64,000 nt of DNA from a virus. A program made the translations under genes and the position numbers. The stretch covers positions 1 through 64,000 of IMG/VR virus record IMGVR_UViG_3300027788_000008; one strand, given 5' to 3'. The first letter of the stretch is position 1, and every line of letters begins with the position of its first letter. The notes beneath the pieces were generated by a model that was not told where the DNA came from, did not search any database, and saw nothing but the letters and a program-made list of their open reading frames with translations. This document shows, piece after piece, positions 22,567 through 42,760 of this stretch.

Positions 22567-23064
22567 ATGGCATTACAAAGAATCGTTCCTGGACTTTCTA
22601 AAAACACGAAGATCACTACAAAGATAAAGTTGTTCTCTGATGTAGATCTCTCTTTCACAGCAAAACAAGGAAGTGAAGACAATGGTAATGGGGTGTTCCG
22701 AGGCGACCTATATAAGAAGGTAGATGCAGCTGCTGTAAAACAGTCGGTGCAGAACATTATACTAACCAATCAACTCGAGAAACCGTTTGAACCAAAATTT
22801 GGAGCAAACCTGAGATCGTTTTTGTTTGGATTGTCAAGTTCATTCTCTGATGATACGATCAAAGATCAAATCAAAACACAGGTAGAACGATGGGAACCCA
22901 GAGCAAAAATTACTGATGTGATTTTCTTTAATGGCCAGACATTAATCCCTCTAGGCACAGGCGACATCTCTACCCACTTCGACAACACCATAAGAATCGT
23001 GATTGAATTTGATATAAATAATAAAGGATTCTCCACCTCTGTACAATTAAATAGGTTTCGATAA
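22567..23064 (+). CDS. 25: baseplate wedge protein gp25
   Basis: A 165-residue GPW/gp25 family protein. The region AAAVKQSVQNIILTNQLEKP followed by FEPKFGANLRSFLFGL is its signature, with ERWEPRAKI and the end IVIEFDINNK following. gp25 lies inside the baseplate, where it joins wedge to sheath and is thought to nucleate sheath assembly. It is slightly longer than T4 gp25 (132) because of the N-terminal extension. AAAGGCAGAG serves as ribosome site; gp6 starts on the last base of its stop. Confidence 0.92.
   Translation: MALQRIVPGLSKNTKITTKIKLFSDVDLSFTAKQGSEDNGNGVFRGDLYKKVDAAAVKQSVQNIILTNQLEKPFEPKFGANLRSFLFGLSSSFSDDTIKDQIKTQVERWEPRAKITDVIFFNGQTLIPLGTGDISTHFDNTIRIVIEFDINNKGFSTSVQLNRFR
23013..23020 (+). 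promoter_or_regulatory. possible internal late promoter before gp6
   Basis: A perfect TATAAATA inside the end of gp25, 43 bases before the gp6 start. It also encodes Asp-Ile-Asn, so it may be chance; position favours use. Confidence 0.4.
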
Positions 23065-24965
23065 TGAGCACCACAATAAAATCTACCGAATTAGATTTCC
23101 AGAACATAAAAGAATCCCTAAAAGAATTCCTGAAATCGGGTGAAGAATTTAATGACTTTGATTTTGAAGGTTCTGCTCTAAATAATATACTTGATGTGTT
23201 AGCATATAACACACACTACAATGCCCTACAGACAAACTTTGCATTGAATGAGTCCTTTCTTGTGACTGCACAATTGAGACCATCTGTTGTTTCTCTTGCA
23301 GAAGGATTGGGTTATGTTCCTGATTCGAAGAAGTCTTCTGTGATAACCGTAAAACTGACAATCGACGCAACTGGAGTTGCTGGACTCCCCCCTACCGCTA
23401 TAACAATTACTCCAGGACAGCTGTCTACACGCGGCACACGAGATAGGATAGACTACACATATACTAACCGAACCAGTCTCAGAGCAGATAAAAGTACTGG
23501 TGTTTTTACATTTCATCCGATTTCTTCTCCAGACGATCCTATCTTATTATATGAAGGAGATCCGCAGAAGGTACAATTCATTGTTGGCAATTCTGCAGAT
23601 TCTATATATATTATTCCCGATAAAGATATCGACATCTCAACAGCAATTGTTAAAGTTTTTGAGAACCAAGGTTCTGCCAATGTGGAGAATGGAGAATACT
23701 CGGTGTATACAAATCTTTTAGACGCGTCTACAATCAGTTCTGGTTCTCGTCTATATGTTCTGCGTGAATCGCCTAACACTTTCTTTGAACTTTCCTTTGG
23801 TAATGGCACCTCTTTGGGACTGACCCCACAAGCAGGAAACGTTATTGAGGTTGACTATCTCCGAACAAACGGGTCTGAACCCAACGGGATTGCCTCACTA
23901 TCTTTAACAGCAGATCTTTACCTTGGGGAAATAGCGATAGAACCCGACAAAGTTGGTATCAGTGTAATAAATCAAGCATCGGGAGGCACCCCCAAAGAAG
24001 GAATAGAATCAATTAGAAAGAATGCCCCATTCCAATTTGCCGCACAGAATAGAATGGTGACCGCTGATGATTATTCTTCCTTGATCTTAAAGAAATATTC
24101 TCCTTTCATAAAGGATATCCAATCTTGGGGTGGTGAAGATAACCCAGACCCTGATTATGGTACTGTGTTTACTTCAATTGTCTGGAAAGATAATATAAAT
24201 GCTACGACCCTGGCCAATACGAGACAGGGCATATTAGATTTATCCGACCAGTTTCAAATAGCATCATTCAAACTAACATTCACCGATCCTGTCGTGACTT
24301 ATATTTCTACTGAAGTTTTTTATCAGTTCAATCCTGCATTGACGGGATTGTCTTCTTCGAAAATCCGCGAGACGGTTCTAGATACAGTCTCTGATTATTT
24401 TGATAATAACACTGGAAAGTTCTCACAAACATTCAGACTATCAAACTTGCTGACAGAGGTGGATGCTGCTGATCCATCTGTGTTATCTTCTCGTGCCAAT
24501 ATTATCCTGAGTAGAAGAATAATCCCTCAGCTGTTAACTACTCGAGACTATGTGGTTAATTTCCCTGCTGCTCTTAGAGATCCTGAACTCTCAACTGTAA
24601 AGACGGTGTGGTCATCTAATTTCACATATAATGGCGGCAGTGTTTTCATCAGAAACAAACTAGACCAAAGGACTGTTGCCGCGAGCGGAGAATATGGTTC
24701 ACAACCATCAAATGTCTTACAGGTGGTGGGAGTTAGCACAGGACAGGTAGTGGTAGACAACATTGGTACATATGATGATGTACTGGGCACCATTTCTATC
24801 ACTGGATTAAGAGTGCAAGACATAGCAGGATCTGTTAATTTTATACAGATGTTTGGTGTTCCCGCCAACCAGTCTGTTATAAACTCTGTTAGGAACAACA
24901 TAATAGAATTTGACACAGTAACGGATACATCTTTCGCCACCCCAATCGTCGTCGAAACAAGGTAA
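23064..24965 (+). CDS. 6: baseplate wedge protein gp6
   Basis: A 633-residue protein of the gp6/baseplate J-like type (T4: 660). FDFEGSALNNILDVLAYNTH and YNALQTNFALNESFLVTAQL, then VVSLAEGLGYVP, are the N-terminal signature. FQFAAQNRMVTADDYSSLIL and FIKDIQSWGGEDNPDPDYG are the J-like core. Twelve gp6 copies form the inner ring of the T4 baseplate. It lies directly after gp25, as in many myoviruses. Confidence 0.93.
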   Translation: MSTTIKSTELDFQNIKESLKEFLKSGEEFNDFDFEGSALNNILDVLAYNTHYNALQTNFALNESFLVTAQLRPSVVSLAEGLGYVPDSKKSSVITVKLTIDATGVAGLPPTAITITPGQLSTRGTRDRIDYTYTNRTSLRADKSTGVFTFHPISSPDDPILLYEGDPQKVQFIVGNSADSIYIIPDKDIDISTAIVKVFENQGSANVENGEYSVYTNLLDASTISSGSRLYVLRESPNTFFELSFGNGTSLGLTPQAGNVIEVDYLRTNGSEPNGIASLSLTADLYLGEIAIEPDKVGISVINQASGGTPKEGIESIRKNAPFQFAAQNRMVTADDYSSLILKKYSPFIKDIQSWGGEDNPDPDYGTVFTSIVWKDNINATTLANTRQGILDLSDQFQIASFKLTFTDPVVTYISTEVFYQFNPALTGLSSSKIRETVLDTVSDYFDNNTGKFSQTFRLSNLLTEVDAADPSVLSSRANIILSRRIIPQLLTTRDYVVNFPAALRDPELSTVKTVWSSNFTYNGGSVFIRNKLDQRTVAASGEYGSQPSNVLQVVGVSTGQVVVDNIGTYDDVLGTISITGLRVQDIAGSVNFIQMFGVPANQSVINSVRNNIIEFDTVTDTSFATPIVVETR

Positions 24966-24970
24966 TATAA

Positions 24971-27900
24971 ATGTCTCTTGATAAAACACTCACTGATTTA
25001 AATCGTAGAGACCTTACGTTCGAGCGATATGATGTTTATGATGCTCTACCCGAGCACTTTGATGAAAAGTATCCCAATTTAGTTCTTTTCCTCCAGGCAT
25101 ACTACAAAAGTCTAGAGGATAAAACAAATCCTGTTTCTAAAATTAAAGAACTCATGGTTGCGAGGGACATAATACAAACTAGAGCAGAGTTTCTTTCTTT
25201 CATAGCAAGCGAACTCCTTCTGGGCAAACCATATTTTGAAGCATTTGCAGATAAACGTTCTGCCCTGCAATACTCCAGTTTGTTGTATCGCTCCAAAGGT
25301 ACTGAGTTCTCCATTAAGCAGTTCTTTCGCATTTTCTTTTCTGTTGACATTGAGGTGAATTATGGCAGGGATGAAATGTTTATCATCGGCGAACCCTCTT
25401 CTGAGATGCTCGAGTATGTGGGCATCGCCGCTGGTGAATCTATGTTCGACTATACATTTCCCAATGGTGACTTCAATATCATCTGTGAAGTCCCCGCTGC
25501 CCTTCAATCCACTTATGGCGAATTCGCTCAACTGATTGCTGGAAAACACTACACTGTTGATTATTCAAATAGGAAGGTCACATTATTACCCCACGCCGGA
25601 CTTGTCGCTGACGACGGCATTAACACCAAGTTGGGTATTCTTCCTACGGGAGTGAGACTCAGAATAAGAACAGAACTTCGATCGTACACCACAATTGGTT
25701 CTGACGCGACAAACAAGAAAATAACAGATAATGAGTTTTATCAGTTATACGGTCTCATGATATCTACTCCTTTATCTGTTAACATATGGAAAGATGCATA
25801 TAAGACTTTTGTGCACCCAGCTGGAATGTTCTTGTCTGGGCAAATCTCACTAAGGTCGATATTCTCCTATGTCGATGTTTATCCGAAGAAGAAAGACCTA
25901 GACACTGGGGTGATATGGCAGATCAGTCTTGGGTTGGGGTCGATGCCCAATGCTACAATCCAACCACCACCACCACTCCTTATACAAGAGATGGCCCGTG
26001 TAATGCTCAAACAAGGAGGGTATGGGTTACACACTACTTCTTATCTCGAGATCGGACCAGGACCAAACGGTTATAGAATACTGACTAGGGTAAATGACCA
26101 AATGGATATTTATTCAGTAGAAAACTGGCACACGCAGTATAACAACCTCGCTCGCGCTGATGATGTCAATGCCCGAACACTGGATGAAGAATCTGTTGAC
26201 GGTGGACCAACACGTGGACCTGATATGTCCAACACAATCAACTTACTCGATGAAGATGTTTGGTACTATAACATCCTACACCCTCAAACCAACTCACCAA
26301 TATATGGGGGAAACTTTCAAGGAGTTTATTCTACTGGAGATCTTCAAACTGTTGCACCAACAGTTTCTGGAACACAGGCAGTAATGCTGGGCACGTTGTA
26401 CGTTGATAATCTTACGGGCGACGATACTAATCCAGGAACCAGCGTGGCTCCTTACGCCACCATCGACCATGCCATGCGCTCGCTGGTTCCTGGATATACC
26501 ACAGTCCTCATTGATAATGGACCATCGAACCCATATCGTGTTCACGACCGCCCCAGTACTGATTATCTTTATGTCAGTAATAAAACAGGCACAGCACTGA
26601 ATCCAATAATTCTTTCGGGTGATCCAGATTCTCAGGCACACACGCGAAATGATCCAGATCGCCCAACAACTCAGTATACCAATGCATATATCGTAGGCAG
26701 TCTCCACCTGACGGGTTGGTATGAATCCTTAACATACACTGATGTTTGGGAAGTCGCTAATCCATTCCCAGATTTTACATCAACCCAACTGTATGGTTGT
26801 ACATACACAAAATGGACGGATGACGGAGTAGTTGGATTAGGAAGACTACTTCCAGGACTCGCCGCTGATAGTCTTTTAGAGGGAGAATGGTGGAAAGACT
26901 CGACCAAACTCTACTACAAACCCAAGGTCGACGATGTCCTATTGGGCGACACCGCCCATCACCTAGAATATTCGGAAAACATGATCTTCAGTTTGAAACG
27001 TATTAAGCATATGACCTTTGACGGTCTATCGCTATCGCATGCTGCTGGTCCAGGTATTCGAACCGCCGGTGCTGGTGTCGTTCGTGATATAGACGATGAT
27101 CTCATACAAGTTGAGGATTGGTGTAACGATATAACGATTCAGAATTGTTTCATCAGAGAAACCAGAACTGGCGTAATTTTATCCCAAGGATCTCGATACA
27201 TAGTCCAAGATTGTGTAATATTAGATACCCAGAATGGTGGTATAGGGTTGATGGGCAGCAATGGAAACTGGCCTAATTCGAACTATTCATATCCAATAAG
27301 CAATACTCTGGTTCAGAATAATATAGTGGGTAGAACAAGAAATAATGATGGAATTTTCTATCACGCCAATAGCGAATATGTAGACGATGTATTCAATGAT
27401 GGACTCGGGCGCACGGATGATATCGGGGATAATCACAGAGCACTGAATAATATATGTTTTTCTTGTGCAGAGAACGGGTTCGACATTACTTCCGGAACTA
27501 GTATCTCACTAGAAGGAAATATTACCCACGATAATAACCAAGTTGGAATTTCTGTCGGGCACTATGCTAGAGATGTCACTATAAGAAATCATCAAAGTAT
27601 TAACGATGATGCTTCTCAGAATTACGGAGGAGCCTTTGGCATAAACGATTCACGAAACGTACTGATTGAAGGAGCTGTTGTTACTAATCCTGGTAGGATG
27701 TGTATATCTATCAGGAATGATGCGCAAAATATCGAGATCAAAAATAGCACATTTACTTCTGGAACAGATACTTCTCGTCTCGAGTTAATAGGTATTTTCA
27801 CCGATGAATCCAAAGAATATAATGTGTCTCCTCGTGGCGGATTTCAACACGGACTCGCTACTGTGCCGCAACGTCCTAAAAATATCACCATCAAGGACAA

Positions 27901-30900
27901 CACATTCAATATTGCTTTCGGCGGCATAAACCAAAACGCAAGCAGGAACAATTACTTCCCCGTGTTTGTAACGTTAAACACGCTTCCGATCAGAGGATAT
28001 AATTTCCAAATCACCGGAAATACATTTAACACATCCTCGAATAACATAGCATTCCAACCTGGATCCACTGGACTTAACGACTTTGGTCCATATAAGGCGG
28101 TGAATACTTTGCCTGATCGAGATATTGGGGGACAACCAACAGTCCACGTGCAGTCGGCAAACCAGGAATTCTTTGCTGCTGGAAACTTTGGAGAGGGGGA
28201 ACTTGCTGACATCTGGAACTTCTGGCCAACCGACGTAACTCCTGTGGGAAGAGATGGCAATACTAGCAAGGGTTTGATATTAAGCGGAAATGTGAAAGGA
28301 AATCTAACTCTTTATTCTTCCGCGCATCAACTTTCCTCCCACTGGGACGCCATAACAGTAGAAGGCGTGAATGGCGATCCAGATGCTAGTTACAGGGAAC
28401 GAACAAACTGGACAATCCCAACACCCTCGCAGATAGGAACATCTAGGGCAGTTGCTTACAAAGATACTTTAAATGCTAATTTATCTGCACAAGCAGAGTG
28501 GTCTGGTGACCATAGAAACTCTGCTGGACCCATAGTCTGCGTTAATATCAACACCACTGCGTTTGGTTTAAGTTTCGTGTGGTATTCTGGTGCTAGTGGC
28601 ACAGACTCCTTCCTTGCTCTTTTTGAGGTTGGACAACAAAGCGAAGACTTGAATCTTGTCGGCATCAGCGCAGCATACCCACATGTTGACGGAACTTCTT
28701 TACGCTTACGAATGGATCTAGATCAAGGCGTATTAAAATGTTACGCAGGAATAAGACCTGTTGGTGGGTCTTCTCTTGTATCATCTACAAACCAATCGGC
28801 ACTTACCCTGATACCCCTGACCGACGCTGAGGGTGGCACATCATTCTCTGACACATATAATGTAGAAACTAATAGTCCTGATTTGTTCTTAGCAACATAC
28901 CATGGTGTTTATCTTATAAACAACCAAGAAGGCGGGGACAGAGATACTAGTATAGACTATGTGCATTATCCAAATTATCTAAGAGATCTCCCCTCCCCGA
29001 TACCTGCAGGGCGATATTTCAGAACAGAATTTACAGACCCAGATACAAGTCGCGCGACTCTAGATGGCACGCCTAATACTTTATGGAGACTGACAAAAGA
29101 TAAATCTATACGAGACTACATAAACTACCACAACACTCAGTGTTGGAGTCCTGATGGAAGATATATATGTATCGAACGTTGGACAACTGGCCCAGGTTCT
29201 GATAACTATTCCGCCGCTGGTGGCAAGGCCAGCATCGAAATTTGGATTATTGACCTCGAATTAGACAAGGAGTTTCGAATAGACTCCGGCATGGCCCCAC
29301 GCTGGGCGAACCTTAGCAACACGCTCTTCTTTGTGCATCGCACTGGAAACGGAGAGGACGTGTATAAGACTACTGCTCCATCAGGATTGGAAGTTAAACG
29401 GTTTGTTGTAGAGACTGGAGAACTTACCACCATATCTTATGGTGTTGAGGAACTGGGCGAGACTAATAGTGATGATACATACTTATATGGTGTCCAGCGT
29501 TACCGCTCAAGCGAACAGCAGAGTTCCGGCGACTATCTCTCGATTCCTGGACAGGAAAGGGTTTCTGTGCTTATGGAAATTCTTCCAGATTCAACCTCAC
29601 AACCTGTCAGATTTGGTGATGGTACAGGAAGTCGTCCTCTCCCCAGCCGAAACCACCCCGTCGTCATTATGAGGAACAAATTGAGAGGTGTAGACCAAGG
29701 AAAACCATTCACTCCCAGTCGAACTCACTCCGACCTTGATGGTACAAATATGCGCACCGGCACGATTTTCATTCAAGCAGGACATCAATCCTGGAATGGT
29801 GATGGATCCTACCACGTGGTAGGAAACTCTCAGGCACAAGGACGTAAATGGAATGAAAGTTATCCAAGTGATATGAACAAATTGGCCAACGCAAGAACCT
29901 CTGACCCAGGACCATGTGGTCATAGTGGAAGGTGGATAGTATCACGCGGGACGATTTTAGATCTAAGGACAGGGGGTCACTGGGAAATGTCCCATGGATA
30001 TTCTAAAATAGTATATCCTTCTGGCACTGGAGATGTTTCTGAACCTTACGACCAAGATGCCAAAGGTAGTCCTGACGGAACAAAGGTTTGTCTTGTTAGC
30101 AACTTTGATCTCGAGAGCAAAGCGGTCACCCGCCCCACTATTCCAACAGGTCGGTCAGACGATGACATTACGGTTTTGTCTACTGCTAATTTTCCAGAAA
30201 GTGGTGATCTAGTTTTTGAGTCAGAAGTTATTGGATATTCTAGTAAAACACCAACATCCTTTAAAGGGATTGAACGAGGAAAGTACACTACCAAGGTGTA
30301 TGGTGTAGAGGCAGGAAAACCTCTTACGCTTCTCGATTCTCGTATCTTAGCAGAACAAGACCGTGACGCTAGCAATAGACCCAACTACATGGACGATACC
30401 AAATTCAACCCCAGTTCTGGTGACCTCCGCCACCAGAATCTGACAGACGCTTATGTTGTGGTCGTGCGCAAACCTGATGCCCCACACCTTCGGGAACATC
30501 CAACCATCATCGGACAAATACAATTGATTCCTGGAGAAAACCACTGGGAAACAGCAGGTTATCGTATCTTCAAAGATGGGCAACCACTGGTTAGTGGCAG
30601 TGCAACTATAGACCCTGGAGCAACCATATCTCTCCCAGCTGGTGTTTACACTGCGACATCTGTCGAATATAACGGGTTAGAAGGCAAGATTAGTAACGAG
30701 ATCACCACCACCACTACTAAGACACTAGACATCTTAGAAGAGATTCCAGGCGACTTCAGTTGGATAATTGAATTGTGGGTTGTTGTTACCGACGGCACCC
30801 CCGCATACACAACCGAGGCACTTGGTCTGGCTGCGCCTGAAGCGACCATGATTGAGTTTCATTATAGTGAAGGAGTAATTTCCTCTAGTTTATATCTCAA

Positions 30901-31342
30901 CGGAAAACGAAGCACGCGGAACTATACTGATTACTTCGGCGTTCAAACCAAAAAAGAGTATTATGATGTTGTAAATGCAGAGAGTGTGCTTAGATTGAGG
31001 GAGTTTTATATAGATCCGACAACCGTGGTCGCAAAAGACGGCTCCGCAATTACCGACGACGAAAAATTGGGTATATACAGCGAAGAAGTTTTTAACACCG
31101 AAACTGGGATGATGATATCGGACAAGCATTGGAGGTATGATAACGATGGATTTGGTGGAGAGAATGTGAAACGCGCAAAGCTTGCCCAGGAGTGGACATA
31201 CAGCAATGGTGTACCGACATCGAATATTGTCGGGGGTAGTGCGAAATATATTAAAGAAGGCGATCTCTGGGTTAGATATAAATGGTCTGGTGGAACGGGA
31301 TATGATCACTACAATCCCGTAGATGATTGGGTAGTGTATTAA
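24971..31342 (+). CDS. 7: giant baseplate wedge fusion: gp7-like head, beta-helix spike, beta-propeller
   Basis: A 2123-residue protein (T4 gp7: 1032). Residues 1-300 look like a wedge protein (LPEHFDEKYPNLVLFLQAYY, then YRSKGTEFSIKQFFRIFF). Residues about 475-1035 are a right-handed beta-helix of the pectate-lyase/tailspike type (GTLYVDNLTGDDTNPGTSV at the start, then many N-N-I-x turns such as NTLVQNNIVG). About 1165-1270 looks like a concanavalin-type sandwich. About 1370-1845 looks like a TolB/oligogalacturonate-lyase beta-propeller (QCWSPDGRYICIERW, later AYVVVVRKPDAPHL). A fibronectin-like domain (1862-1920) and a beta-rich tail follow. A glycan-cutting or glycan-binding arm fixed to the baseplate is inferred. 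Catalytic residues cannot be named. Confidence 0.75.
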   Translation: MSLDKTLTDLNRRDLTFERYDVYDALPEHFDEKYPNLVLFLQAYYKSLEDKTNPVSKIKELMVARDIIQTRAEFLSFIASELLLGKPYFEAFADKRSALQYSSLLYRSKGTEFSIKQFFRIFFSVDIEVNYGRDEMFIIGEPSSEMLEYVGIAAGESMFDYTFPNGDFNIICEVPAALQSTYGEFAQLIAGKHYTVDYSNRKVTLLPHAGLVADDGINTKLGILPTGVRLRIRTELRSYTTIGSDATNKKITDNEFYQLYGLMISTPLSVNIWKDAYKTFVHPAGMFLSGQISLRSIFSYVDVYPKKKDLDTGVIWQISLGLGSMPNATIQPPPPLLIQEMARVMLKQGGYGLHTTSYLEIGPGPNGYRILTRVNDQMDIYSVENWHTQYNNLARADDVNARTLDEESVDGGPTRGPDMSNTINLLDEDVWYYNILHPQTNSPIYGGNFQGVYSTGDLQTVAPTVSGTQAVMLGTLYVDNLTGDDTNPGTSVAPYATIDHAMRSLVPGYTTVLIDNGPSNPYRVHDRPSTDYLYVSNKTGTALNPIILSGDPDSQAHTRNDPDRPTTQYTNAYIVGSLHLTGWYESLTYTDVWEVANPFPDFTSTQLYGCTYTKWTDDGVVGLGRLLPGLAADSLLEGEWWKDSTKLYYKPKVDDVLLGDTAHHLEYSENMIFSLKRIKHMTFDGLSLSHAAGPGIRTAGAGVVRDIDDDLIQVEDWCNDITIQNCFIRETRTGVILSQGSRYIVQDCVILDTQNGGIGLMGSNGNWPNSNYSYPISNTLVQNNIVGRTRNNDGIFYHANSEYVDDVFNDGLGRTDDIGDNHRALNNICFSCAENGFDITSGTSISLEGNITHDNNQVGISVGHYARDVTIRNHQSINDDASQNYGGAFGINDSRNVLIEGAVVTNPGRMCISIRNDAQNIEIKNSTFTSGTDTSRLELIGIFTDESKEYNVSPRGGFQHGLATVPQRPKNITIKDNTFNIAFGGINQNASRNNYFPVFVTLNTLPIRGYNFQITGNTFNTSSNNIAFQPGSTGLNDFGPYKAVNTLPDRDIGGQPTVHVQSANQEFFAAGNFGEGELADIWNFWPTDVTPVGRDGNTSKGLILSGNVKGNLTLYSSAHQLSSHWDAITVEGVNGDPDASYRERTNWTIPTPSQIGTSRAVAYKDTLNANLSAQAEWSGDHRNSAGPIVCVNINTTAFGLSFVWYSGASGTDSFLALFEVGQQSEDLNLVGISAAYPHVDGTSLRLRMDLDQGVLKCYAGIRPVGGSSLVSSTNQSALTLIPLTDAEGGTSFSDTYNVETNSPDLFLATYHGVYLINNQEGGDRDTSIDYVHYPNYLRDLPSPIPAGRYFRTEFTDPDTSRATLDGTPNTLWRLTKDKSIRDYINYHNTQCWSPDGRYICIERWTTGPGSDNYSAAGGKASIEIWIIDLELDKEFRIDSGMAPRWANLSNTLFFVHRTGNGEDVYKTTAPSGLEVKRFVVETGELTTISYGVEELGETNSDDTYLYGVQRYRSSEQQSSGDYLSIPGQERVSVLMEILPDSTSQPVRFGDGTGSRPLPSRNHPVVIMRNKLRGVDQGKPFTPSRTHSDLDGTNMRTGTIFIQAGHQSWNGDGSYHVVGNSQAQGRKWNESYPSDMNKLANARTSDPGPCGHSGRWIVSRGTILDLRTGGHWEMSHGYSKIVYPSGTGDVSEPYDQDAKGSPDGTKVCLVSNFDLESKAVTRPTIPTGRSDDDITVLSTANFPESGDLVFESEVIGYSSKTPTSFKGIERGKYTTKVYGVEAGKPLTLLDSRILAEQDRDASNRPNYMDDTKFNPSSGDLRHQNLTDAYVVVVRKPDAPHLREHPTIIGQIQLIPGENHWETAGYRIFKDGQPLVSGSATIDPGATISLPAGVYTATSVEYNGLEGKISNEITTTTTKTLDILEEIPGDFSWIIELWVVVTDGTPAYTTEALGLAAPEATMIEFHYSEGVISSSLYLNGKRSTRNYTDYFGVQTKKEYYDVVNAESVLRLREFYIDPTTVVAKDGSAITDDEKLGIYSEEVFNTETGMMISDKHWRYDNDGFGGENVKRAKLAQEWTYSNGVPTSNIVGGSAKYIKEGDLWVRYKWSGGTGYDHYNPVDDWVVY

Positions 31343-31439: not shown

Positions 31440-32990
31440 ATGACAGCGACAATTACCGATAGAATAAAACGTGAGATGTTGAAGAAAGTATTCGACAGAA
31501 CACAGAACATTGGCATTGAAGTAAATACGGATTCTGACCGCCACTTTCTGGCCATTGGACGTTGTAGCGAATGGCCTGATGAAGCAGATCCACCCACACC
31601 GACTTCTGCTGCGGATGAAGAATTGAAATTTCGTTCAAGCATACAGGCAATGAAACTAATTACCGATGTGTCATATGTTGTTCCGAGACACTCTTGGAAT
31701 TCTGGTAACTTCTATGAGGCATGGTCTACGCAGTATAACTCTAATACAACTATAGGTGCCACAACTGGCAATAGTATTATTCCTAACCCCTACTATGTTC
31801 TAACTGACGAAAACAATGTCTTCATTTGTGTGCAACAAGGCAAGACTGTCTCTGGTGTTGCCCGTCCATCTTTATATAAACCAACTAACACAGCAGATGG
31901 GGTGTTTCCCGCAGGTGATGATGGATACTTTTGGAAGTACATGTACAATATTGGTGCAGAGTTATCTCGAAAGTTTTTAACATCAGCATATATGCCAGTA
32001 GAGCGCATTGTTGATCTCGCCTATGGCGGCCCGAGTGCCGACGACCTATCTATATCCCGACTAAACCAAAGATCGATTCAGGCAGGAGCAATACCTGGAC
32101 AACTAATAGGAATTGCAATAGATAATCCTGGACGGGATTATGTATCGCCACCCACCATAACTATAAAAGGTGTCCCACGCAAAGGTGTTATCGCCAAAGG
32201 GACCACGAACCTCAGCAAGGACGGACACCCCGTCGCCACGGGAGCTATTGCCGCCGCCAAGATTAATGACGGAGGAATATCTGATGTTATTATGAAAAAC
32301 GCTTTCGTAGATACTGCCTTTACTTTCGGTCAAAATTACACCGACGCATCTATATTCGTCAGCGGTGGGGGTGGAAGTGGTGCAGTATTGCGCGCAATCG
32401 TTTCTCATGACTCTGGCATGGGTGGCAACCCAATCATTGACTTAAATTCAACTGCCCTTATGTTCACCACTCAACTCACTGGCAGTGAGAATGAAGATTT
32501 CCCAACCACAAATGACTTCCGCCAGATTGGTATAATACGCAACCCACATAGAGATTCTGCTCAGTATGGTAGTTTTCCTCTAACGGGTGAAGACTCTTAT
32601 GCTAGAGCATCAACTCTGCGAGCATCTAAAGCACTACATGTTACTACTACCACCCTGAATGCCATAAATATAACTGGTGACCAGTCTGTCAGTCAAGTTA
32701 GTAGTCCATCCGTTAACGCAACCATAGACTATTACGATGGAAACGGTATCTTGTATGTTCATCAAACAAGAGAAACTGGATATATGCCATTCGACAGCAA
32801 CTCAGACGTGACGGTGTCTGGTGGCGGTGGAAGCGCAACCACGATTGCTAACGCAGTCAACGATATGCCAATACTGCGCCCTGCTGAGGTTGATAATTTC
32901 TCCGGAGAGATATTATACATAGATAATAGAACAGCAGTTTCTCGCGATGCAGATCAAACAGAAGATATCAAGGTTGTAATTGACCTCTAA
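31440..32990 (+). CDS. 8: baseplate wedge protein gp8
   Basis: A 516-residue protein (T4 gp8: 334). The beginning ITDRIKREMLKKVFDR, then RHFLAIGRCSEWPDEADPPT and VSYVVPRHSWNSGNFYEAWS, is the gp8 signature. DNVFICVQQG-like segments and KPTNTADGVFPAGDDGYFWKYMYN follow. A Gly-rich beta part (VSGGGGSGAVLRAIV, and a second Gly-rich stretch near residue 465) is extra compared with T4. gp8 dimers form part of the T4 wedge arms. AAGGAC at 31426 is the likely ribosome site. Confidence 0.85.
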   Translation: MTATITDRIKREMLKKVFDRTQNIGIEVNTDSDRHFLAIGRCSEWPDEADPPTPTSAADEELKFRSSIQAMKLITDVSYVVPRHSWNSGNFYEAWSTQYNSNTTIGATTGNSIIPNPYYVLTDENNVFICVQQGKTVSGVARPSLYKPTNTADGVFPAGDDGYFWKYMYNIGAELSRKFLTSAYMPVERIVDLAYGGPSADDLSISRLNQRSIQAGAIPGQLIGIAIDNPGRDYVSPPTITIKGVPRKGVIAKGTTNLSKDGHPVATGAIAAAKINDGGISDVIMKNAFVDTAFTFGQNYTDASIFVSGGGGSGAVLRAIVSHDSGMGGNPIIDLNSTALMFTTQLTGSENEDFPTTNDFRQIGIIRNPHRDSAQYGSFPLTGEDSYARASTLRASKALHVTTTTLNAINITGDQSVSQVSSPSVNATIDYYDGNGILYVHQTRETGYMPFDSNSDVTVSGGGGSATTIANAVNDMPILRPAEVDNFSGEILYIDNRTAVSRDADQTEDIKVVIDL

Positions 32991-40507: not shown

Positions 40508-42760
40508 ATGCCAACTTTAAAGACAATCCCCGCCTGTGCCACTATTCCATTCGCGCTAAATCCACTCAGCACGGATAAAGAAGATTGGGCATCCAAGAAT
40601 AGTCAAATGGGGAATGTTGTATTGCAACCCGTTACACCAGAAGATGGTGTTGCCAAAAACTACTATGGGTCTATAGATCGCATAGGAAATCACTTAGAGC
40701 AGAGTGATATGTCTTCTATAGGTACGGCCACCGATACAAATTATACGGCAGAAACCGGAGACCACTCAGGAACTACACTTGTAGTTGCTACCCTAACAGA
40801 CAATATCTATCAAAACACCACTACACCCCATAATAATGCAGTGCTCAATTGGGATGGCGAATTCGCCGCCGATGTAGTCTCTTTAGACGATAATGGCGAT
40901 ATCCATGTGATGAATGAGGATGATCTCCTTGCCTATGGTACAAGGTTGCTCCAAAAGAGTTTGGAAACTGAATCCGTCGGTTCATTTCGAATAGCATCAA
41001 ACTACAACGAAGGTGAAGCTGATGGTTCGCCGAATCATCCGGAGGCATTTGAGTCTGATATCGCTGGCACTGGAGGTACATGGGAAAACTGGTCCTCGGG
41101 TTTCATGAACTCCCAATCCGACCCAAAATACAAATACTCGATTTGGCGCAAAACCGCGAATGACCCCGAAACCCCTGCTGGAAAACTTTACAACCCAGAT
41201 GACGTGCCAGAGTTACTAAAAAGATCAAGACCCCTGATTTTGAAAGATACATTTGATTTAGAGGAAATGGACGATTATGCATTTTCTTTCTTCAACGCCT
41301 CATGCACCAACCTAGCTAGATTGAGTACCACGTTAGGTGATATGCTGCTTCTGCCTTCTACGCAAACCCCTGCGGGCAATGGCGAGACTGGAACATGGCA
41401 GACACGCGGTAGTATGAAAGACAGGATCAGGCAGACCACAGATATACAATATACTAGTGCCACCTACAATGGTCCCCAAAACCCTGTAACCTACAACACC
41501 CCATATGAAGGATACTATGCGGGTGTCCGCTTCGTGGACGTTCCTGGTACGTTTCAAGGATACGAGCGTGACAGCTTCGAAGGTACGCGAGATTGGGCGG
41601 GGTCTTATGCTGGATCCAGAAACTTTTCGGGGTCGTATACTGGACAGAGAAACTTTTCACATCAATATGTTGGAACGGGATACTACAATGGACAGAGGAG
41701 GTATCAGGGATCGCGCTCTGCAAATTTCCCTGGACCAAAGCGGTCCTACATTGGACAGGTGGCCACTGGGTTCATCCAGTACATCACCACGACCACCCAG
41801 CGTCCTGACGCTGGCACCTTTTCCGACAGCAGTTTCATCCGTACATATGTCAGTTCCCAGCAATACAGACAGTACCAAAGAAACGTCCAAGGCTCGTTCG
41901 CCGGAATCAAATACTACACTGGAAGTAGGCCATATCTTGGTCGCCGCTATTATCAGGGACGCCGCTATTATGTGGGACCAGGATATTTCAGAGGCAGTTT
42001 CAGAGGCATCGGGAAGCAGATTATGAACCCCCAGCGAGGCGATAATAATCCAGCGATACGGGGGGATGTTCGGATTTTTGACGGTGGTCCCTGGCGGACG
42101 GGTTTCTTTATTGGATATCTCAGCAACTATCATAAGTTTTTATCGAATATCGAACCATTTCTAGGTCAGTGGAAGAATTTCAATTCCCCCCCTCAATCAG
42201 AAAAATTTATCGATCCCAATCACCCATACACAGGAGCGCGCCTCACAAATTTCCCTGGACCAAACTACAGAAGTGTCTGGGCATTTTATAATGGATTTCG
42301 GCAAACTAATGTAAATACCGTGTCCTATGAAACAGTCTACAGGCAGGTCAACACCCCCTACACTGATGGCATTACCTCTTTCGCCGGCACAAGATTTTTC
42401 AACTATGCTCAAGGGGCATTCTCGAGTCCGGCGAATTCCGAGAACTTTACTAATACTGAACAATACGGCGGTTCCAGACAACGCAATAGATCTTTCGATG
42501 GTTTTAGAACTTATCAGGGAAACTATAGTGGATTTCGAACAAAACCTGGTTCTTATAATGGAACCAGAGCTGCCGACTTTAATGGATTCCGCTCGGAGAG
42601 ATACGAAGCACCTGCTTCGCCATATACAGGAACATATCAATCTCAGAGAGTGGTACAGTATAATACGACATCGAATATCCAGTATACCGGAGAAACCATT
42701 GTCGCAGCGATGAGGACTTTAGAGACTTACACGCTGTACGTCAAGGTATCTGAGACATAA
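40508..42760 (+). CDS. fibre-like protein with Tyr/Gly/Arg repeats
   Basis: A 750-residue protein. Residues 1-300 include an ordered domain (KRSRPLILKDTFDLEEMDD). Three blocks, at about 330-420, 460-505 and 615-728, are built from short repeats of the form [YF]-x-G-x-R, such as YAGSRNFSGSYTGQRNF, YLGRRYYQGRRYYVG and YQGNYSGFRTKPGSYNG. The composition is extreme in Tyr, Gly, Arg and Ser. Related repeat proteins occur at the end of the tail-fibre region in marine T4-like phages. They probably give a flexible, sticky adhesin. It ends the fibre run before a 71-base gap. Confidence 0.7.
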   Translation: MPTLKTIPACATIPFALNPLSTDKEDWASKNSQMGNVVLQPVTPEDGVAKNYYGSIDRIGNHLEQSDMSSIGTATDTNYTAETGDHSGTTLVVATLTDNIYQNTTTPHNNAVLNWDGEFAADVVSLDDNGDIHVMNEDDLLAYGTRLLQKSLETESVGSFRIASNYNEGEADGSPNHPEAFESDIAGTGGTWENWSSGFMNSQSDPKYKYSIWRKTANDPETPAGKLYNPDDVPELLKRSRPLILKDTFDLEEMDDYAFSFFNASCTNLARLSTTLGDMLLLPSTQTPAGNGETGTWQTRGSMKDRIRQTTDIQYTSATYNGPQNPVTYNTPYEGYYAGVRFVDVPGTFQGYERDSFEGTRDWAGSYAGSRNFSGSYTGQRNFSHQYVGTGYYNGQRRYQGSRSANFPGPKRSYIGQVATGFIQYITTTTQRPDAGTFSDSSFIRTYVSSQQYRQYQRNVQGSFAGIKYYTGSRPYLGRRYYQGRRYYVGPGYFRGSFRGIGKQIMNPQRGDNNPAIRGDVRIFDGGPWRTGFFIGYLSNYHKFLSNIEPFLGQWKNFNSPPQSEKFIDPNHPYTGARLTNFPGPNYRSVWAFYNGFRQTNVNTVSYETVYRQVNTPYTDGITSFAGTRFFNYAQGAFSSPANSENFTNTEQYGGSRQRNRSFDGFRTYQGNYSGFRTKPGSYNGTRAADFNGFRSERYEAPASPYTGTYQSQRVVQYNTTSNIQYTGETIVAAMRTLETYTLYVKVSET

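Follow-up and report, generated by a model that had tools for sequence, protein, structure and literature searches.

The locus lies in a window of 64,000 nucleotides, positions 1 to 64,000 of an incomplete 75-kb virus record, whose gene set (terminase, portal, sheath, major head protein, gp25, gp6 and gp8) is that of a T4-like myovirus. A single gene at 24971..31342 (plus strand, like its parts and the flanking gp6 and gp8 genes) encodes a 2123-aa fused wedge protein. The ORF is intact: it is open across 2123 codons and starts right behind the gene for the baseplate wedge protein gp6 (23064..24965; phrog_219, E 5e-124). The gene for the baseplate wedge protein gp8 (31440..32990; phrog_438, E 8e-68) follows. 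The first-pass annotation had raised the possibility of a chimeric assembly of two genes. We checked this, and the fusion is real: a separate, independently assembled contig (IMGVR_UViG_3300009512_000147, hereafter L001) is 99.94% identical to the window across 17.4 kb, with identical junctions. Since L001 spans every domain junction, chimeric assembly is very unlikely. L001 lacks one G at window position 26617 (residue 549), a 1-base frameshift; in the alignment, the window has the frame kept by all other relatives at this position. The deletion would cut the fused protein short after about 574 aa, and may be a sequencing error or a natural off-variant.

Residues 1–300 (24971..25870) form a gp7-type wedge core. 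Residues 1–434 match baseplate-wedge PHROGs (E 1e-16) and TIGR02242, with PF23786 below its cut-off. When a profile of 26 wedge proteins was compared with five T4-like gp7 proteins by hhalign, the match had a probability of 95.5 and E 1.6e-8 over 238 columns, in the core only. The profile aligns to residues about 637–899 of T4 gp7, and the motifs SKGxxxSxxFxFxxxF and FVHPxG are common to both. Because the profile aligns with five T4-like gp7 proteins, the gp7 identity first proposed for the start of the protein is supported, as it is by the position between gp6 and gp8. The gene order gp25-gp6-wedge-slot-gp8 is found in about 60 related viral contigs and equals the T4 order 6-7-8. In most relatives the wedge homologue stands alone, mostly at 316–530 aa and usually ending near residue 434. 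In marine T4-like phages (L043–L076, L114), the short ORF that separates gp6 from gp8 is a homologue of this core; phrog_3465 names part of this ORF “head closure Hc2”, a label that the record of phage C48C1 carries too. The C-terminal segment of the wedge, residues 366–451 (26066..26323), is found again at the start of the stand-alone ORFs that encode a helix or a propeller (L037, L039–L041, L133, L135), and because of this recurrence ahead of split-off modules we call it the proposed docking segment.

A right-handed beta-helix module follows at residues ~453–1040 (26327..28090), in good agreement with the tailspike beta-helix initially placed at about 475–1035. PF13229 matches it above the family cut-off. 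The AlphaFold model of this region is partial (mean pLDDT 38.6), with helix coils at pLDDT 66–86 across residues ~818–950 of the fused protein and beta-helix-like strand triplets across ~640–980. Foldseek searches with the model returned almost exclusively right-handed beta-helix proteins, at low TM-scores. The best match was a Klebsiella phage depolymerase (E 2.8e-4), and further matches were to polygalacturonase, the PfbA adhesin, GH87, AlgE epimerase, fucoidan lyase and tailspikes; the majority are depolymerases, lyases, hydrolases or epimerases, and some, such as PfbA, are plain adhesins. A profile match to BT_1002 (5mqp), a beta-helix glycoside hydrolase, was marginal (E 0.19, 28 residues aligned). 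The sandwich-like C-terminal part of the cassette, residues ~1041–1344 (28091..29002), moves together with the helix and aligns end to end in L037, L040, L041 and L133. Across the whole cassette (~453–1344), identity is 43–50% in L032, L037, L039, L040, L041 and L133. These relatives were reached with alignments, a search of viral contigs with the window helix sequence alone having recovered only the near-identical copy.

The second cassette comprises a TolB/oligogalacturonate-lyase-like beta-propeller region (residues ~1370–1837; 29078..30481), an Fn3-like domain (~1838–1930; 30482..30760) and a MORN/YwqK-like beta-meander (~1931–2110; 30761..31300). Its AlphaFold model is also partial (mean pLDDT 59.8): some blades, the Fn3-like domain (pLDDT 72–94) and the strands of the meander are well resolved, and the middle of the propeller poorly. 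Because both AlphaFold models are partial, the domain borders given here are approximate, and the middle sandwich and any count of blades are tentative. Of the sandwich and fibronectin-like domains in the first-pass annotation, the latter holds as an Fn3-like domain, and the former is a sandwich-like stretch modelled at pLDDT < 50. Foldseek matched the propeller to oligogalacturonate lyase 3pe7 (E 5e-5, probability 1.00), 3c5m and TolB, with TM-scores of 0.19/0.32 against 3pe7/3c5m for the partial model, and the meander to MORN/YwqK, SdgB and OspA meanders. In a profile search, the Fn3-like domain had a weak, marginal match (E 0.33) in YesX, PL11, to a part that is also Fn3-like. Pfam searches found no match for the meander region, and the window propeller sequence alone reached no Pfam propeller family; PD40 was above its cut-off in three of the seven bacterial propeller homologues tested. 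The Foldseek matches, and PD40 in the bacterial homologues, support the TolB/oligogalacturonate-lyase-type propeller originally assigned to residues 1370–1845, here placed at ~1370–1840. Membership of PL22, suggested for comparison at the outset, is not supported by sequence: PF14583 had no match at E ≤ 1 in the fused protein or its relatives, and we therefore do not assign the propeller to PL22. The PF14583 matches examined in Gammaproteobacteria were TolB-like. Inside the propeller, the motif STxGFPxSGxL...EVIxYxxKTxTxFxGxTRG (window ~30110–30280; residues 836–894 of the L009 wedge protein) is common to the bacterial homologues and the virion proteins phrog_2885 and phrog_22827. No PDB entry was matched by sequence when the query was the full fused protein, the helix module or one of the bacterial propeller proteins.

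Both modules have bacterial relatives. Residues 1345–2113 match bacterial proteins of ~700 aa with signal-like N termini at 33–50% identity overall; the propeller cassette is 44–45% identical (tblastn) to sequences from Halioglobus, Haliea and a Mariniblastus MAG, and 33–36% identical to proteins of Armatimonadota, Verrucomicrobia, Pirellulaceae and Phycisphaerae. Helix homologues of 577–590 aa, predicted to be secreted and 27–28% identical, occur in two Halieaceae genomes (L101/L103) and keep the N-D, H, D, H, E, D, H and N-H-x-S positions. The polar residues that do not vary between phage and bacterial versions (segment numbering) are N319-D320, H325, H349, E361, D365, H391, H401 and D406 in the helix, and R37, N41, H43-N-T-Q46, R100, H261, R310, D350, D352 and K354 in the propeller. 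The propeller family is present in three of 140 Halieaceae genomes, and both genomes with the helix family are among those three. Because the three are close kin and not independent cases, this co-occurrence is suggestive only; a Halieaceae-like host is a reasonable guess from it. In the Halieaceae genome G130 (L107–L109), the propeller gene is broken by several stops and the helix homologue is intact. Neighbours of the bacterial homologues include an Apiosidase-like protein at L089 and L091 (below the family cut-off, although Collagen_bind_2 passes its cut-off), an acetyl-xylan/glucuronyl-esterase-like protein at L091, a GHL10 hydrolase at L087 and a GFO/IDH/MocA oxidoreductase at L082. In Halieaceae, sequence alone points to a sulfotransferase and a probable glycosyltransferase as neighbours.

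The same modules are arranged differently among the related contigs. The wedge alone is the commonest state. Propeller fusions to the wedge occur in L002, L003, L006, L009 and L010, a helix fusion in L032 (which ends at the contig end), and a wedge-helix-propeller fusion in the window. Elsewhere the wedge is followed by a separate ORF: segment 366–451, a repeat linker and the helix in L037, L039, L040 and L041; segment 366–451, the propeller and then the helix, the reverse of the window order, in the 2316-aa ORF of L133; and segment 366–451 with the propeller in L135, an ORF cut at its start. The L133 propeller is without the CGxSGR motif. Linkers of imperfect ~12–14 aa repeats, such as GSGTLEAQASTVDG, lie between docking segment and module in L037–L041, L002 and L032, and the same repeat abounds in a 416-aa ORF of L039 (13391–14641). 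Where wedge and module are split, the wedge ORFs of L041 (8001–10403), L037 (4362–6752) and L133 (2607–5009) have their own ~400-aa C-terminal extensions; these had no Pfam match and are possibly lectin-like sandwiches.

One pair of contigs shows how a module arrived. L003 and L076 are 91.8% identical in DNA over 8.9 kb up to the wedge end, and L003 carries about 2.7 kb extra, the propeller. About 60 bases past the new stop in L003 lies a remnant of the old wedge end (TTATTCACGACAGCGACTAATATAA, vs TTATTTACGATAGCGACTAATATAA in L076), which gives the direction as insertion. One insertion event is thus supported directly, as are gene integrity, gp7-core homology, module homology and modular shuffling. 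In a propeller tree that left out L133 and L135, all five phage sequences group together (100/100), next to the Halieaceae/Mariniblastus group, and L003 is the sister of the window (99/99). In contrast, L003 falls with L076 in the wedge tree (97/100), and the window joins L032, L015, L002, L006 and L009 (96/99). Monophyly of the five propeller-bearing wedges was rejected (AU p 4e-44; the tool warned of long branches). The comparison of L002 with L009 gives a dS of 0.24 for the propeller against 1.04 for the wedge. The discordant trees and the low propeller dS make it very likely that the propeller module was transferred between phage lineages. In two pairs, dN/dS is 0.5–0.7 in the propeller versus 0.13–0.17 in the wedge of these pairs. 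The high value fits a surface-exposed part on which demands change, and relaxed constraint would give the same picture.

What would such a protein do? We propose that two bacterial-type, carbohydrate-directed modules have been joined in frame at a C-terminal socket of the gp7-type wedge subunit of a marine T4-like phage. The core would hold the wedge together, and the socket segment would direct the arms outward. In T4, gp7 is a monomer that occurs six times and binds gp9 and gp10 (PMC3004832). By this homology, one gp7-type protein per wedge and six per baseplate may reasonably be expected, so the six arms envisaged in the first-pass annotation are plausible as single chains around the baseplate. 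Helix and propeller would both act on a single polysaccharide of the host surface, with one of them gripping or cutting it while the other trims or cuts it, and removal of the polysaccharide would clear a path for the tail. We consider it probable that the protein forms such wedge-anchored arms; presence in the virion, copy number, glycan target and catalysis are what we infer within that reading. In its favor are the conserved gene order and the gp7 profile match, the bacterial relatives of both modules, which have signal-like N termini and in some cases adjoin glycan genes, the overlap of both families in Halieaceae, the joint presence of both modules in L133, the invariant polar residues, the propeller dN/dS and the mostly enzymatic structural matches of the helix. 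Against it, neither module could be assigned to a catalytic family, the structure models are partial with low TM-scores, some helix matches are plain adhesins, and the CGxSGR motif is lost from the L133 propeller. More tentatively, and with somewhat less than even confidence, we suggest that the C-terminal end of gp7 could be a general plug-in socket: captured host enzymes would enter it in frame, leave it again together with a duplicate of the socket segment, pass between lineages and work in pairs as a covalent, monomeric two-step polysaccharide-processing machine, six per virion.

Alternative explanations differ in how much of this they would remove. That the fused gene is an assembly artefact or a decaying gene is extremely improbable: the frameshift at residue 549 in L001 would fit it, but the independent contig refutes an artefact, fusions of a similar kind occur in L002, L003, L006, L009, L032 and L133, and dN/dS is below 1 in the informative pairs. 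A second view is that the extension is structural, substituting for a gp9/gp10-type connector and holding other fibres. In both L003 and L076, the wedge is followed by the connector gene, recognized in L076 by its gp9/10 N-terminal domain (PF07880). In the window, L002, L006, L009 and L010, the slot lacks this gene, and it was not found in the 75-kb record, which is incomplete. These empty slots suggested connector replacement, which we rejected because L003, L037–L041, L133, L135 and L138 have both modules and a connector gene, and L015 has neither. The modules also resemble secreted bacterial proteins rather than virion proteins, and we regard a structural role of this kind as very unlikely. 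The presence of modules alongside the connector gene in relatives also speaks against the earlier suggestion that the arms replace separate tailspikes, as do other possible fibre genes beyond 39 kb in the incomplete record. Past a 1994-aa protein, the window encodes a 750-aa protein (40508–42760) that has many YxGxRxYxGxR-type repeats and matches no family convincingly.

A more serious alternative, though still an unlikely one, is that the modules serve purely as adhesins, arms without catalytic activity that bind glycan for reversible attachment and do not cut it. The PfbA adhesin is among the structural matches of the helix, propeller dN/dS is high, and the wedge protein of Pseudomonas phage K8 is already known as a glycan binder (PMC9887876). 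On the other hand, charged or polar residues are invariant between the phage and Armatimonadota propellers and between the phage and Halieaceae helices, and some bacterial relatives adjoin glycan-degrading genes. Because of these invariant residues, enzyme activity (lyase, hydrolase or epimerase) appears likelier than pure binding for the wedge-anchored arms.

The protein shares features with several known systems. It resembles T4 gp7 (PMC3004832) in its core, its position between genes 6 and 8 and its expected single copy per wedge; however, about 640 residues of other domains precede the core in T4, whereas in the window the core comes first and bacterial-type modules follow, with no comparable helix or propeller annotated in T4 gp7. 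Depolymerase tailspikes (K64-1 S2-4, Dettilon, HK620, P22) share the beta-helix fold, the tail location and an assumed glycan target. Unlike them, the window helix has no tailspike N-terminal binding domain, is joined to the wedge (in relatives, to a wedge-derived segment), and has secreted bacterial proteins as its nearest cellular relatives. Tailspikes are trimers, whereas the window helix is covalently attached to a wedge subunit whose T4 counterpart is monomeric, and the arm is expected to be monomeric by analogy with gp7. With PL22 and TolB propellers, it shares a probable propeller-type fold (by Foldseek with the partial model) and, in its bacterial relatives, PD40-like repeats; the window protein differs from PL22 in not reaching PF14583 and in adding Fn3 and meander domains. 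In K8, the putative baseplate wedge protein GP075 is likewise implicated in host glycan binding, a likeness of role: the change there is a point mutation, and here whole modules are added. Beta-helix and propeller depolymerases are known from phages, N-bladed propellers being a recognized class (DepoScope, PMC11326577), as is mosaicism of tail proteins (PMC10684548). In the literature searched, which was partially covered, we found no phage with helix and propeller on the wedge, and both modules on gp7, together with the series of swaps, are apparently undescribed. The early impression that no described phage has this domain order also survived a search of 50,697 phage records: seven matched the fused protein at E ≤ 1e-5, all within the wedge part, and no isolate had the order.

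The glycan-active parts of phage tails are usually separate, replaceable trimeric spikes or fibres. Here, putative glycan modules are welded onto a core wedge subunit, as a candidate six-copy monomeric arm, and relatives show capture under way in two contigs, 92% identical, of which one has the propeller and the other lacks it. Two unassigned bacterial protein families emerge that may act on marine polysaccharides. A further result is a short gp7 core in marine T4-like phages, although gp7 has been reported absent from pelagi- and cyanomyophages (PMC7029224). Overall, this phage family appears to exchange glycan modules at one fixed socket, and the occurrence of the same two modules fused, split and reversed gives a testable route by which a bacterial secreted protein may be captured and mounted on a baseplate.
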